Shown here: positions 2,764 to 8,530 of the stretch, piece by piece
Position numbering within the stretch: position 1 is the stretch's first letter
Layout: the number at the start of each line of letters is the position of its first letter
IMG/VR virus record: IMGVR_UViG_3300021559_000023
Location: 1-22,175 of that record
Strand: one strand, 5' to 3'
Source of the DNA: a virus
DNA length: 22,175 nucleotides
Made by a program: the position numbers and the translations under genes
The notes under the pieces: model-generated
The model's database searches: none
What the model saw: the letters and a program-made list of their open reading frames with translations, nothing else
What the model was told of the DNA's origin: nothing

Positions 2764-2944
2764 GGAAAGCCCCCAGGAGCAAGCCAAGCATCAAGCACGC
2801 CAATACGACTGCCGACAAAAATGTGGTGATTAGTCCAGGACATGGAAGGCTCAAACGCTTAAGCAGCAGAAACATCACGCAGCCAATGCCCAAATACGCG
2901 GCGATCAGCAAGAGGACCAAACAGGAATGCATCAGTATTTTCAT
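2756..2944 (-). CDS. Small two-pass membrane protein
   Basis: Encodes 62 aa. Two hydrophobic segments, about residues 5-27 and 38-60, are separated by a short basic loop (LLKRL). The ATG overlaps the gpA stop as ATGA (2941-2944), and the 3' end overlaps the next gene by 8 nt, so it is locked into the early operon. No family is recognised. The topology would suit a small inner-membrane protein of the phage early region, such as an exclusion or anchoring factor, but no function is shown. Confidence 0.7.
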   Translation of the reverse strand: MKILMHSCLVLLLIAAYLGIGCVMFLLLKRLSLPCPGLITTFLSAVVLACLMLGLLLGAFRG

Positions 2945-4908
2945 AGATCGCTTTCAGTAATATAAATTCGTGGATATGGGCAGGCGCCGAGAGCTGCCCA
3001 GGTCGTGACAAGGCACTTGCGTGCCGCTATGTCGTTTTTTTCATACGCGGCCACTTCCTGCCGGCGCGTCTCTTCACACTGCGCATTCATCGCGGTGGCA
3101 AATTTGTCGGTTTCCCGCTCTAGGTCTTTCGATTTTTTATCAATCGCCGACCAGTCGGTGGGCTGGTACGCCGGCTGCGGATTTTTTTCGATGAAAGCGG
3201 CAAGCCGAACTGCTGTTGCTGCTATTTCTTCCGGCGATAAAACCGAAGTAGAAATTTTCTTTTTGGATTTTTTCGTACAGTTATTTACACCAGTCCAAGG
3301 AAAGTCAAAAGCCACAGCCTTGGCGGCGCCGACGACTGTCCACTGATAGCGGACCGATTCGTAGACCGCGCGGGGATTCCATGCGTGATAAATCCCGCAT
3401 GGCTTCTCTGTCTCATAGGTGGCGTACTTGCCTTCGACCACGGTGCTGCGTGTGGCGATCTTGACCAGACCCTTGCGCCCGACCAGGGGGCCGCCTTGCG
3501 CCCGCAGGTAGTCGCTATAGGAGGCTTGCTTGATCGTCTTGACGGTTTCCACGCGCTTGCCGTCGATAATGTTGGTTTCGGTTGCCTTGATGGTCTGGGC
3601 AGCCTGCCAGGCCGATTTAACCGCGTCAGGCGCGTTGATGATGCTTTCGCTCTTCACGCGCCGCAGCTCGCGCCAAGGGCCGATAGGCGCGCCGCCGACT
3701 TGCTGAAACTGCCGAATGCCCCAGGTCTGCGCCCAATAGCACACGCGCTGGCTGGGCGTCAGCATTTCGTCGCCGGCCAGGTCGTCGGTCACGATGTAGG
3801 TGCGGCCGTCTTCGCGCATGTGGTGATCGCCGACATGTTCACCGTCGATGTTCTTGGCGATGTATTTCGCAATGTAGCCAGCAGCAGTACCTTTGCCAGC
3901 TTCGATACGCACCAGCTTGACGCGGTTCTTATCGGCGCCGCGTTCGTCGCCGTCTTCGATCAGCGCGTAAGCTGTGATGATCGCCTCGTAGCGCTCTTGG
4001 TGTTCAGGCGGTACAAACATCAGCATGTGCCAGTGTGGGCAACCATCGTGATGCGGTTCAGCAATGCGGAAGCCGTAGGCGTGGATGCCGTCGCGGTGCA
4101 ACTTGGAACGGATGCGCTTCCATACGTCGCACAGGTATATCTGGGCATCGCGCGGCGTGGGTTCGCCAAACTCGATATATCGCGGGTTAGATTCGCCGCT
4201 CTTGCTCAGGACGGCGTGATACTTGCTTGGCGCTGTGATCGTGGCAAACAGGCCGACATGGCCTAAGTCGAAAGCGATTTCCTCGAAACCGCGTATGCGG
4301 GTCATCAGTTCGCCGCGCCGATTGGACTTGTTGGCTATGCCGAGTGCAGCCAAGGCGTCCAGGCTGTAGACCTGGCCGTTTTCGTTTTGCAGCTCGATAG
4401 AGGCCAGCAGCTTGGCATTCTGTTTATTGCGGCGCTGCTGGCGATAGGCGGTTTCGTTGCTGACATAGGGGCCGGTCATGTAGCTAGTGAAGCCAAGGCG
4501 GATCGCCATATGCTCGCAGCGGCGCGCATGCGCCTTGCGGATGCCGCGCAGCCACCAGGCTTTGTCCAAGGCCCTGCGAATGATTTCGTTTTCTTCTTCG
4601 CCGGCCGGCGGCGCCACAGTCAGACGCGCACAGAGTTCACGAATCGCGGACAAGATCGCATCCAGGGATTGCAAGTCGGCACAGAACTGATAGCACTCGC
4701 GGGCGGCGCTATCGGCAGCACGATAAAGCGCCTCATCAGGCGCATCGAGCGGCAGCAGGTAATGATCGGCTGACCAGATCTCATCAATGACATCGATCTT
4801 GTGTTCGTGCCGATCCATGCCATCGCGGGCGAACAGGTCGCGCAGGGCGCGGCCCATGCGTTTCGGCAGGCTGGTGATGGCGTCGGTGGAATAGAAGCGG
4901 TAGCTCAT
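2941..4908 (-). CDS. A: P2 gpA-like replication initiator (HUH endonuclease)
   Basis: Encodes 655 aa of the phage replication gene A family (P2 gpA is about 760 aa). These proteins nick one strand at the phage origin, join covalently through tyrosine and start rolling-circle-type replication. The metal motif is CPHWHMLMF (His292, His294). The paired nucleophiles lie in GYIAKYIAK (Tyr345, Tyr349). The conserved WGIRQFQQ and PIGPWRELRRV blocks follow at about 396-420. The start at 4908 forms an ATGA overlap with the upstream gene stop (4905-4907); a longer reading to 4953 is less likely. The start of the downstream 62-aa gene overlaps its stop. In P2 the origin lies inside gene A; I could not place a nick site here. 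Confidence 0.95.
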   Translation of the reverse strand: MSYRFYSTDAITSLPKRMGRALRDLFARDGMDRHEHKIDVIDEIWSADHYLLPLDAPDEALYRAADSAARECYQFCADLQSLDAILSAIRELCARLTVAPPAGEEENEIIRRALDKAWWLRGIRKAHARRCEHMAIRLGFTSYMTGPYVSNETAYRQQRRNKQNAKLLASIELQNENGQVYSLDALAALGIANKSNRRGELMTRIRGFEEIAFDLGHVGLFATITAPSKYHAVLSKSGESNPRYIEFGEPTPRDAQIYLCDVWKRIRSKLHRDGIHAYGFRIAEPHHDGCPHWHMLMFVPPEHQERYEAIITAYALIEDGDERGADKNRVKLVRIEAGKGTAAGYIAKYIAKNIDGEHVGDHHMREDGRTYIVTDDLAGDEMLTPSQRVCYWAQTWGIRQFQQVGGAPIGPWRELRRVKSESIINAPDAVKSAWQAAQTIKATETNIIDGKRVETVKTIKQASYSDYLRAQGGPLVGRKGLVKIATRSTVVEGKYATYETEKPCGIYHAWNPRAVYESVRYQWTVVGAAKAVAFDFPWTGVNNCTKKSKKKISTSVLSPEEIAATAVRLAAFIEKNPQPAYQPTDWSAIDKKSKDLERETDKFATAMNAQCEETRRQEVAAYEKNDIAARKCLVTTWAALGACPYPRIYITESDL

Positions 4909-5243
4909 GCGGCGATACCGTCCGATTCGTGACTCGCAGCGGGGAACTGACAAGGGAGTTCACCACCTTGCGCGCAGCGCAGGACGTTTTGCAGTTGCTT
5001 GATTAGCCGACTGGCTTCGCAATGCAGCTTGCCGCGCTCCAGGGCGTTCAGCGATTGCAGGGTGGTGTCGCCTTTCTTGCTGCCGATGCCGGCCATGTGT
5101 GCCAGCATCTGACGATCACGCGGCGGGACGCTATTCCAGCGGGCGGCGCGTACACTTTCCTTGTCGCCGGCCAATATGATGTAGGCGTGTGTCAGGTGGG
5201 TGTACGCAATGTCCTGGTGTGTCTGTTGGGAGTGGGGCGCCAT
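4905..5243 (-). CDS. Hypothetical early phage protein upstream of gpA
   Basis: Encodes 112 aa with no recognised domain. The central part is helical and polar (VRAARWNSVPPRDRQMLAHM), and the C-terminal third contains two cysteines (LHCEAS, LRCAQG). It is coupled to gpA by an ATGA overlap and begins 3 nt after the 35-aa membrane peptide gene. It is clearly part of the early operon. Role unknown. Confidence 0.7.
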   Translation of the reverse strand: MAPHSQQTHQDIAYTHLTHAYIILAGDKESVRAARWNSVPPRDRQMLAHMAGIGSKKGDTTLQSLNALERGKLHCEASRLIKQLQNVLRCAQGGELPCQFPAASHESDGIAA

Positions 5244-6664: not shown

Positions 6665-7108
6665 ATGAAGGATTTCAACAAACGTCTACGGACGGAAAGA
6701 AAACGTCTTGGCCTTAATCAAGACAAATTTGCCGTACTCGGTGGTGTCACAAAAGATACTCAACTGAATTACGAAAATGCTTCCCGAAAGCCGGATTCTG
6801 ACTATCTCGCGGCAATAGCCGCTGCGGGTGTTGACGTCCTCTATTTGCTTACCGGGGAATATGCATCGGCAGTTCTGCCCGATGATGAAAAGGACATGCT
6901 GGCTGGTTATCGCAGTTTGGACATTCGCGGTAAAGCTGGTGTCCTTGGAATGATTGATGGGATGCGTGCAGCCCCTACGCCCGCTGCTGAACCCACAAAA
7001 ACAGGTCCCCATGTTGAATTCCATGGGAAGGTCAGCCAAAACGTTACCGGGAATGTCACCGCGCCGCAGACGTTCAATATGGGCGGCAAGAAGAAACCCA
7101 AAGTATAA
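6665..7108 (+). CDS. Phage repressor, Xre-type HTH with Gly/Val motif tail
   Basis: Encodes 147 aa. Residues 4-63 form a Cro/C1-type HTH (LRTERKRLGLNQDKFAVLGG, then a recognition helix and LLTGEY). There is no S24/LexA-like peptidase domain, so RecA-stimulated self-cleavage is not expected; in this it resembles P2 C. A Pro/Ala linker (102-116) leads to a glycine/valine-rich segment with pattern FxGxVxQxVxGNVxAPQ at residues 119-135, and a basic end (GKKKPKV). The same motif opens the membrane protein encoded two genes downstream. The gene is divergent from the early operon and should keep it silent in the lysogen. Confidence 0.85.
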   Translation: MKDFNKRLRTERKRLGLNQDKFAVLGGVTKDTQLNYENASRKPDSDYLAAIAAAGVDVLYLLTGEYASAVLPDDEKDMLAGYRSLDIRGKAGVLGMIDGMRAAPTPAAEPTKTGPHVEFHGKVSQNVTGNVTAPQTFNMGGKKKPKV

Positions 7109-7198
7109 AAATTCGATGGGAACGAACCCAGGTTTCAGTTTGGGCATTTAGATGCAATAAAAACAATTTCACAATTATTATTAACAATGGGAGTTCAG

Positions 7199-7780
7199 AT
7201 GGGAGCAGCAATTGGATTTATCAGTTTTGTCGCGGTTTGGTGGGGGCTGGTTCGTTTTTACAAAAGCAAGGGCAAGGGGGCTTTTGTACGCCATCTCGCC
7301 GGCTTTGCGGGGGGCTTTGTCGCGTTGATTATTGTCGCGGCAGTAGCAGGCGGATCAAGCAAGACAGCAGATGCTCCAGCGGTGGCTCAAAATACAGACG
7401 CCGCCACGTCCAGTGCCGATGCAAAATCAGCTGCGGCTTCATCTAGTAAAGCGCAAATTCCAGCAGAAGCAGCGATGGCGGTAACAGTGTTACAACTTGC
7501 CAAGGACTACGACGCCAATGAGGTCGCTGCGGATCAAAAATATAAAGGGAAGATGTTGCGTGTTTCGGGCAGCGTTCAAAGTATCGATAAAGACGCTTTC
7601 AACAACATCGTGGTTCATCTAAAGACTGCAAACGAATACATGCCTGCTATGGCAAAGCTGAATGACAAGCACGAGGCGTTGGCGGCGTCGCTCTCGAAAG
7701 GCAACAAAGTCACCTGGCAATGTGAAGGCGGCGGCAGGATCATCGGTAGCCCAGTTCTCAACAATTGCGCACCGGCCTGA
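7199..7780 (+). CDS. Membrane protein with OB-fold (tRNA_anti-like) domain
   Basis: Encodes 193 aa. There are two N-terminal hydrophobic helices (about 3-19 and 34-51), a low-complexity Ala/Ser/Asp linker (52-88) and a C-terminal domain (94-192). In that domain, TVLQLAKDYDANEVAADQKYKGK followed by LRVSGSV resembles the tRNA_anti-like/OB-fold family common in small membrane and periplasmic proteins. Two cysteines (WQCEGG, NNCAPA) could pair outside the membrane. I chose the ATG at 7199 because GGGAG precedes it by 5 nt; an ATG at 7187 lacks a ribosome site. It lies between the repressor and the motif-sharing membrane protein, in a typical moron position. Confidence 0.7.
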   Translation: MGAAIGFISFVAVWWGLVRFYKSKGKGAFVRHLAGFAGGFVALIIVAAVAGGSSKTADAPAVAQNTDAATSSADAKSAAASSSKAQIPAEAAMAVTVLQLAKDYDANEVAADQKYKGKMLRVSGSVQSIDKDAFNNIVVHLKTANEYMPAMAKLNDKHEALAASLSKGNKVTWQCEGGGRIIGSPVLNNCAPA

Positions 7781-7813
7781 TAGCCTGCAATCATATTACG
7801 GAGACTCAGCAGC

Positions 7814-8530
7814 GTGACAGGAAAAACAGCATTTACCGGGGACGTAGGCCAAGCGGTGATAGGTAATGTCGAACAGGCGCCACAATTAACTAATGTGATG
7901 CATTTGAACGTGAACACAGAGAAGTCCAAAGATGAAGCCGGCGAAAAGATCTCGCCGTATCAAAAATCTCAAATTTGGCGCAAGGCACTTGAGTTGGCAT
8001 CTGTCACCGGCGGGGAGCCGGTAGCAGCCTATCCCGAGTTGCTGGATCGTTTTGGTGTGAGTCGCATAGAGGAACTACCTTCCAGATATTACAAATCTGC
8101 GAAGGCAATGATGGAGCGCCGCATTGCTGCCGCCAAGGCCGACCTGGAAGCCACAGAACCAATTGAGCAGGCCGTCGCGCCGAAACCGCTTGAAACATTG
8201 GCGGTACTCGGTCCAACGACGATACATGCGCCCGCACCATGTCCTGCGTGTGCTGAGAAGACGAAAGCAAATACAAAACTGGTTCAAACTTCTATTGCCT
8301 TTGCAGTCGTCACGATTATGCTGGCCGTTGGATGTGGATGGCTACTTTACAAAATGCCGACGGATAGTCCCGTTGCCAACGCAGCGCAGACGGAAACGAT
8401 GTGCCATAACGACAGCAAAACATACTCCGTGGGCAGCACGGCTAAAATTTTGAATGTCGGCGTGAAAGAGTGCGTCGACGGTGAACACGGCCCACGCTGG
8501 GATGACATTCAACGTCCGCGGACACGCTAA
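7814..8530 (+). CDS. Membrane protein with Gly/Val motif and ORF6C-like domain
   Basis: Encodes 238 aa. Residues 7-27 carry FxGxVxQxVxGNVxxAPQ, the motif found at the repressor C-terminus. Residues 46-105 (SPYQKSQIW..., then LLDRFGVSRIEELPSRYYKSA) resemble the ORF6C domain of phage antirepressor-type proteins. PCPAC is at 142-146. A single transmembrane helix spans about 160-179, and a C-terminal part with two cysteines (197, 220) recalls the small periplasmic DUF1496 pattern. So the motif and ORF6C-like part are probably cytoplasmic. The GTG start follows GGAG. Domain names are by-eye resemblance. Context suggests a partner or antagonist of the repressor (inference). Confidence 0.65.
   Translation: MTGKTAFTGDVGQAVIGNVEQAPQLTNVMHLNVNTEKSKDEAGEKISPYQKSQIWRKALELASVTGGEPVAAYPELLDRFGVSRIEELPSRYYKSAKAMMERRIAAAKADLEATEPIEQAVAPKPLETLAVLGPTTIHAPAPCPACAEKTKANTKLVQTSIAFAVVTIMLAVGCGWLLYKMPTDSPVANAAQTETMCHNDSKTYSVGSTAKILNVGVKECVDGEHGPRWDDIQRPRTR

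Follow-up and report, generated by a model that had tools for sequence, protein, structure and literature searches.

Behind the cI gene of phage lambda lie rexA and rexB, the latter encoding a membrane protein, and we know of no short motif shared among these products. In this layout a repressor gene is followed by genes expressed in the lysogen, and RexA can reportedly tip the CI switch in favour of lysis (PMC11077077), which provides a precedent for a repressor-adjacent gene acting on lysogeny. Another kind of link between neighbouring gene products is represented by the BASS motifs, which were defined from the C-termini of Bell proteins and the N-termini of NLR proteins encoded side by side (PMC8086366). 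A review on this subject poses the question of whether bacteria also have signalling amyloids in pathways other than those of NLRs (PMC7889193). In the Burkholderia phage KS5, gp11 is annotated as a repressor and gp12 as a membrane protein (PMC3091744). The passages found on KS5 (PMC3091744), AP3 and Carl1 mention neither a shared motif nor a link between the two proteins, and our literature search yielded no description of the motif reported here.

We analysed the virus record IMGVR_UViG_3300021559_000023, a stretch of 22,175 bases that carries P2-like genes and is called the window in the following. Three genes lie in the same orientation on its plus strand: the gene of an HTH repressor (P0001, 147 amino acids, positions 6665 to 7105), that of a Sie-like, membrane-anchored OB-fold protein (197 amino acids, 7187 to 7777) and that of a single-pass membrane protein with a GTG start (P0002, 238 amino acids, 7814 to 8527), here called the partner. 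The frames of P0001 and P0002 are each followed by a stop codon. The repressor ends, and the partner begins, with copies of a common motif. Our sequence comparisons suggest that this motif forms a physical link between the repressor and the envelope, previously undescribed as far as we could find. The gp11/gp12 pair of KS5 and the corresponding pairs of AP3 and Carl1 have the same gene pair, gene order, motif pair and domain plan as the window.

The OB-fold protein matches the Pfam family tRNA_anti-like (9e-20) and PHROG 8545, 'superinfection exclusion Sie-like' (6e-39). It was found in 18 loci, of which 17 contain the repressor and 14 the partner, and is probably an associated moron outside the motif pair. 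Its gene lies before or after that of the partner, which is sometimes absent (L050, L086, L183). More generally, the region between the repressor gene and gene D is an accessory hot spot, where genes assigned by eye as HNH (L024), RelA/SpoT-like (L037), kinase (L195) and KAP-like NTPase (L237) were noted. Elsewhere in the window, on the minus strand, the open reading frames at 1130-1795 and 2941-4953 share a replication-initiator-like stretch (HWHLLMF / HWHMLMF, YIAKYIAK), and the shorter one appears to encode a second P2 gpA-type protein in truncated form.

P0001 is a phage HTH repressor by its Pfam HTH_3 match (E 6.7e-5, 23.3 bits for a cut-off of 23) and its similarity to known immunity repressors. 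Its best match among the PHROG transcriptional regulator and repressor families reaches 2.5e-15, and its full-length identity to the immunity repressors of Carl1, KS5 and AP3 is 47-53%. In the AF2 model a helical domain spans residues 4-100, and the tail from about residue 101, motif included, is disordered. The protein terminates in the basic tail GGKKKPKV (7082 to 7105, plus strand), and at least three K/R are present among the last 15 residues in 56 of 57 paired repressors. Motif-less members of this HTH family are common. Two repressors of this family (L050 and L088) carry other C-terminal tails, ...SQVIVGGSYNVQLG and ...SQVVVGGSHNVQVG, which contain a RHIM-like V-Q-[LV]-G and may represent other motif families carried by the same repressor.

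The partner matches the PHROG 6521 membrane protein family (E 4.6e-24) over residues 5-237, corresponding to profile positions 3-242 of 243, which agrees with the original prediction of a membrane protein. In an AF2 model built with 31 homologues, residues 1-39, including the motif, are disordered. They are followed by helices 48-65, 69-80 and 90-113, a block with pLDDT of about 84-97, by a long helix (144-180) and by a five-stranded domain (196-231; pLDDT of about 93 for residues 201-230). The transmembrane segment, contained in the long helix, covers residues ~157-179 (8282 to 8350, plus strand) and lies after C143xxC146. This CxxC just before the membrane (CPACAEK, residues 143-146) is found again in many partners, where it lies on the side predicted to be cytoplasmic, and its region gives a zf-LITAF-like match with an E-value of 0.047. 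By the positive-inside rule the N-terminus is predicted to be cytoplasmic, as 43 partners are N-in versus one, with a mean of 2.92 K+R before the transmembrane segment and 0.96 after it. The predicted periplasmic beta domain (residues 195-231; 8396 to 8506, plus strand) contains the cysteines C197 and C220, and exactly two cysteines follow the transmembrane segment in 45 of 49 partners. It resembles DUF1496 (PF07383) as a small two-cysteine domain with a YSxGxxI pattern at the C-terminus of the protein, but matches to this family are sub-threshold (seen in 15 of 31 homologues with E-values down to 2.3e-4, and absent for P0002), and in the partner the domain is fused behind a transmembrane helix and a cytoplasmic motif.

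The three-helix region (residues 45-113; 7946 to 8152, plus strand) had been described as ORF6C-like, a label for which we found a weak likeness to the ORF6C antirepressor domains (PF10552) in both sequence and predicted fold. Pfam matches are below the cut-off in five of the 31 homologues (E 0.046 or worse, 0.015 in another Pfam scan), and Foldseek pairs the region with viral ORF6C proteins at E 0.06-0.1 with a probability of ~1; a Foldseek search of P0002 against the PDB gave no match below E 0.8. Minimal partners of about 90-119 residues (L134-L136 and L237) consist of motif, transmembrane segment and cysteine domain only, so that the ORF6C-like part is dispensable. In the locus L001 an ORF6C-like domain is also present in the repressor, before the motif, and shares 44% identity with that of its own partner over 66 residues (E = 8e-12). 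The view that the two proteins are otherwise unrelated thus holds for the window but not for L001. Altogether, the predicted plan of the partner comprises a cytoplasmic motif, optional ORF6C-like helices, one transmembrane helix and a two-cysteine periplasmic beta domain.

The motif region is the best local alignment between P0001 and P0002 (Smith-Waterman score 43), and the consensus common to both termini reads F-x-G-x-V-x-Q-x-V-x-G-N-V plus xAPQxxN. On the repressor side it comprises residues 119-138 (FHGKVSQNVTGNVTAPQTFN, DNA from 7019), with a core at 119-131 (FHGKVSQNVTGNV, 7019-7057) and an extension, TAPQTFNM, that runs to residue 139 (whole feature 7019 to 7081, plus strand). The copy of the partner comprises residues 7-27 (FTGDVGQAVIGNVEQAPQLTN, DNA to 7894), with a core at 7-19 (FTGDVGQAVIGNV, 7832-7870) and the extension EQAPQLTNV up to residue 28 (7832 to 7897, plus strand). 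The coordinates and residues of the original prediction were exact for both copies. Over the 13-residue core, DNA and protein are both 62% identical (24 of 39 bases and 8 of 13 residues), with the same codon at four of the eight common residues, so the proposed greater divergence of the DNA relative to the protein does not hold. The heuristics of BLASTP do not detect the motif alignment between P0001 and P0002, and Smith-Waterman alignment with shuffles was therefore used. The match has a p-value of 0.025 against shuffled whole proteins (Gumbel 0.020), and of 0.0005 to 0.001 if the comparison is restricted to the two termini. For the window alone the chance level is modest, which makes the match a lead rather than a finding; it is raised above chance by the recurrence of the motif pair across homologous loci.

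The membrane protein has homologues in viral contigs (L001-L019), in the Burkholderia phages KS5, AP3 and Carl1 and in Herbaspirillum genomes; among 394 genomes of the same family, 34 contain one. Wherever the gene upstream of the partner is visible, it encodes an HTH repressor that ends in the motif and a lysine-rich tail. Of the distinct partners that carry the motif, 58 lie downstream of a visible repressor, and in all 58 cases this repressor carries the motif too; for two others the repressor is out of view. One gene intervenes between repressor and partner in some loci, the window included. Altogether, 57 distinct cognate pairs were obtained in which the C-terminus of one product and the N-terminus of its neighbour have the same motif. 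The motif is thus kept in homologous loci, including adjacent-gene pairs of other prophages, as the original prediction would have it.

A search starting from the repressor only, in 80 viral loci, gave 37 motif-bearing repressors with a partner and 13 without, compared with one motif-less repressor with a partner and 30 without (Fisher 7e-11, a value that overstates independence, the loci being related). Among the motif-bearing repressors of the sampled genomes, 24 of 49 have no detectable motif-bearing neighbour. The pairing is thus one-way in these sequences: the partner appears to require a motif-bearing repressor, not the reverse. With about half of the motif-bearing repressors unpaired, the motif probably also serves the repressor itself. 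A few unpaired repressors adjoin a partner with a diverged motif or an unusual start codon. The repressor motif is retained in the THGKIGQNFVGNI and FHGKVGQQIHGDI groups, which have no motif-bearing partner, and some of their members adjoin a motif-less protein with a transmembrane segment and a cysteine domain. Small proteins of this kind follow a motif-bearing repressor in L037, L044, L139, L140, L192, L195 and L223; in some loci their frame, a remnant or a variant, overlaps the 3' end of the repressor gene.

Two loci show other arrangements. In L056, tandem HTH proteins (4001-4423 and 4669-5097) both terminate in the motif and are followed by a transmembrane protein. In L134, a reverse-strand open reading frame (1016-1393; plus strand 1824-2201) between the motif-bearing repressor and a minimal membrane partner encodes a small HTH-less protein with both motif types, a partner-type copy at the N-terminus (FTGDVAQAVIGNV) and a repressor-type copy with a lysine tail at the C-terminus (YAGKVKQVVEGGQ); L184 contains a degraded parallel. 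This protein, of which there is one clear example, could be an adaptor relay or equally a deletion fusion of the two modules.

We compared the motif copies of cognate pairs with those of shuffled partners, using BLOSUM similarity over the 13 motif columns and clustering the pairs by the identity of their protein bodies. Cognate similarity was 31.8 versus 25.0 after shuffling for the 57 distinct pairs, 32.3 versus 26.2 for 28 clusters and 33.8 versus 27.6 for 18 clusters, with p at most 5e-5 in each case; single-linkage clustering below 70% identity leaves 2-3 clusters, for which the test has no power. Control flanks outside the motif gave no cognate excess (p = 0.37), and the excess persisted with I/L/V/M merged and when clusters were left out one at a time. 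The merged residues and the control flanks counter compositional bias as a cause of the similarity. Codon identity at common residues is 40% in cognate and 34% in non-cognate comparisons, which makes recent gene conversion an unlikely source.

Among 24 disjoint sister pairs, both copies changed in the same column in 23 instances versus 14.0 expected (p = 0.0016), for example S/S versus G/G, I/I versus F/F, N/N at column 8 and Y/F at column 10; a swap test on the sister pairs was borderline (Wilcoxon p = 0.057). Such matched changes can be seen in the cognate pairs of L116 (VGGDIGQQIHGDF with VRGDLSQLIGGNF) and L117 (VGGNVGQQIHGDV with VRGDVAQLIGGNV). As these sequences share ancestry, the p-values are optimistic and indicative. 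The co-variation is the strongest evidence of this analysis and suggests that the two motif copies are in contact. Column entropy alternates along the motif: odd columns average 1.18 and even columns 2.13, a pattern like that of a beta-strand conserved on one side. An avoidance of D/D at column 12, considered as a sign of in-register stacking, was no more than suggestive (p 0.09 overall, 0.03 in a subset) and was dropped.

The specificity of the motif was evaluated with the pattern G-x-[VIM]-x-Q-x-[VIM]-x-G-[ND]-[VIM], applied to the DNA of 196 genomes regardless of genes. About 98 matches were obtained, versus 9 for the reversed pattern. In the loci that were read, the in-frame matches with a profile score of at least 25 fall in repressor C-termini, partner N-termini and small repressor-like proteins, with one exception, L173, where an unrelated protein of 247 amino acids (1198-1938), possibly DUF2807-like by eye, has FHGGVGQVIMGDM in its middle. 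Many lower-scoring matches lie in DegP/HtrA-like genes or in antisense frames. A narrower pattern searched in 369 genomes of the class gave nothing convincing beyond one Herbaspirillum genome (G001), the few matches looking like chance or antisense hits. The PSSM used for motif finding was trained on 20 of the same sequences and is lenient for close relatives; the cognate-versus-shuffled comparison is unaffected, because both arms use the same motif set. The motif thus appears largely confined to the repressor/partner system and, in these samples, to phages of Burkholderiaceae. Wide use in unlinked proteins, which would have spoken against a paired function, was not seen in the 196 genomes, although about half of the motif-bearing repressors stand unpaired.

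The system resembles BASS in its design: a C-terminal and an N-terminal motif in the products of adjacent genes, local similarity and disordered tails (PMC8086366, PMC7889193). BASS pairs, however, consist of an NLR and a Bell (or TIR/CHAT) effector and occur mainly in multicellular actinobacteria and cyanobacteria, whereas the pair described here is made up of a phage repressor and a single-pass membrane protein. The RHIM/BASS3 core [VI]-Q-[VILC]-G was present in none of the 57 repressor and none of the 57 partner motifs (motif plus 20 residues), and Pfam scans found no NLR or Bell domain in either protein. With the core and both domains absent, this is not a known BASS; the proposed link to BASS/RHIM motifs stands as a likeness of design and fails as membership. 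The likeness to lambda lies in the gene order, with the difference that RexB is multi-pass and the partner of the window single-pass; family scans showed no homology to cI-rexA-rexB.

Contact between the repressor tail and the membrane protein is strongly suggested by these comparisons. We tentatively favour, at somewhat less than even confidence, a homotypic motif that links the prophage repressor to a membrane protein and thereby couples lysogeny to the envelope. The repressor would present its motif at the C-terminus, beyond a disordered linker, and the partner a cognate copy at its cytoplasmic N-terminus, with a small periplasmic domain of disulfide type on the far side of the membrane. 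The two copies would pair by beta-strand stacking, and the partner would bind or nucleate repressor molecules at the membrane, so that repressor availability, and hence lysogeny, might be tied to an envelope signal or state. We infer the physical binding, its stacking geometry, the effect on repression, the direction of that effect and the signal itself.

The motif might instead be a self-assembly tail of the repressor, used for cooperative operator binding and borrowed by a moron membrane protein that co-localises with the repressor or is regulated by it, with no control by membrane capture. This would explain why half of the motif-bearing repressors keep the motif intact next to no motif-bearing neighbour, why both tandem HTH proteins of L056 end in it and why 56 of 57 repressors have kept the basic tail. 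We nevertheless consider it unlikely, since same-family repressors commonly do without the motif and the dependence of 58 out of 58 partners on a motif-bearing repressor, together with cognate co-evolution, indicates that contact with the partner matters. A strong form of the homotypic-contact explanation, overlapping with it, is true amyloid-type signalling, in which the membrane protein would template an all-or-none beta-stacked polymer of repressor tails, as in BASS, HET-s and RHIM. The geometry of the termini, the gene adjacency, the alternating conservation, the disorder and the co-variation match the way BASS motifs were defined, but with no RHIM core in 57 pairs and no NLR or Bell domain, this form seems rather improbable. 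The same doubtful standing applies to its consequence, an NLR-independent homotypic, possibly amyloid-type templating between a membrane sensor and the lysogeny repressor, by which the envelope could sequester the repressor through stacking of its tail and cause an all-or-none induction not driven by DNA damage.

The position of the genes, on the same strand just 3' of the repressor gene and ahead of the late gene D, would also suit an exclusion or abortive-infection device expressed in the lysogen, with the layout of lambda cI-rexA-rexB. Here the membrane protein would sense a superinfecting phage at the envelope, the repressor motif would be a switch or an anchor, and the device would be directed at the superinfecting phage or at the cell rather than at the lysogeny of the resident prophage. 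The Sie-like OB-fold protein is often alongside, and the same site holds defence-like genes in relatives (L024, L037, L195, L237). The partner, however, contains no toxin, channel or enzymatic domain and has no match in PADLOC, and such a device leaves unexplained why the repressor carries the motif; we hold it to be quite improbable. Least probable of all, in our opinion, is the idea that an old duplication copied the 3' end of the repressor gene into the adjacent gene and left the shared motif as its relic, the copies being similar through ancestry or recombination and not binding each other. The similarity does run beyond the core into xAPQxxN, and the double-motif protein of L134 could have arisen by the joining of the N-terminal part of a partner to the C-terminal part of a repressor. 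Plain ancestry, however, would not favour cognate over non-cognate likeness, gene conversion would lift codon identity, which is 40% versus 34%, and the excess of same-column double changes also argues against a relic.

The homotypic link between repressor and membrane protein would be a small system: two genes, motifs of about 20 residues and dozens of natural cognate pairs with matched-column substitutions, so that its specificity is open to direct testing by motif swaps. If true, it bears on the question, raised in print, of NLR-independent bacterial signalling amyloids or similar homotypic motifs (PMC7889193). Should the two motifs bind each other, a large group of P2-like prophages in Burkholderiaceae would have its dormancy wired to the cell envelope, which would provide a route of induction or exclusion other than the SOS/RecA path.
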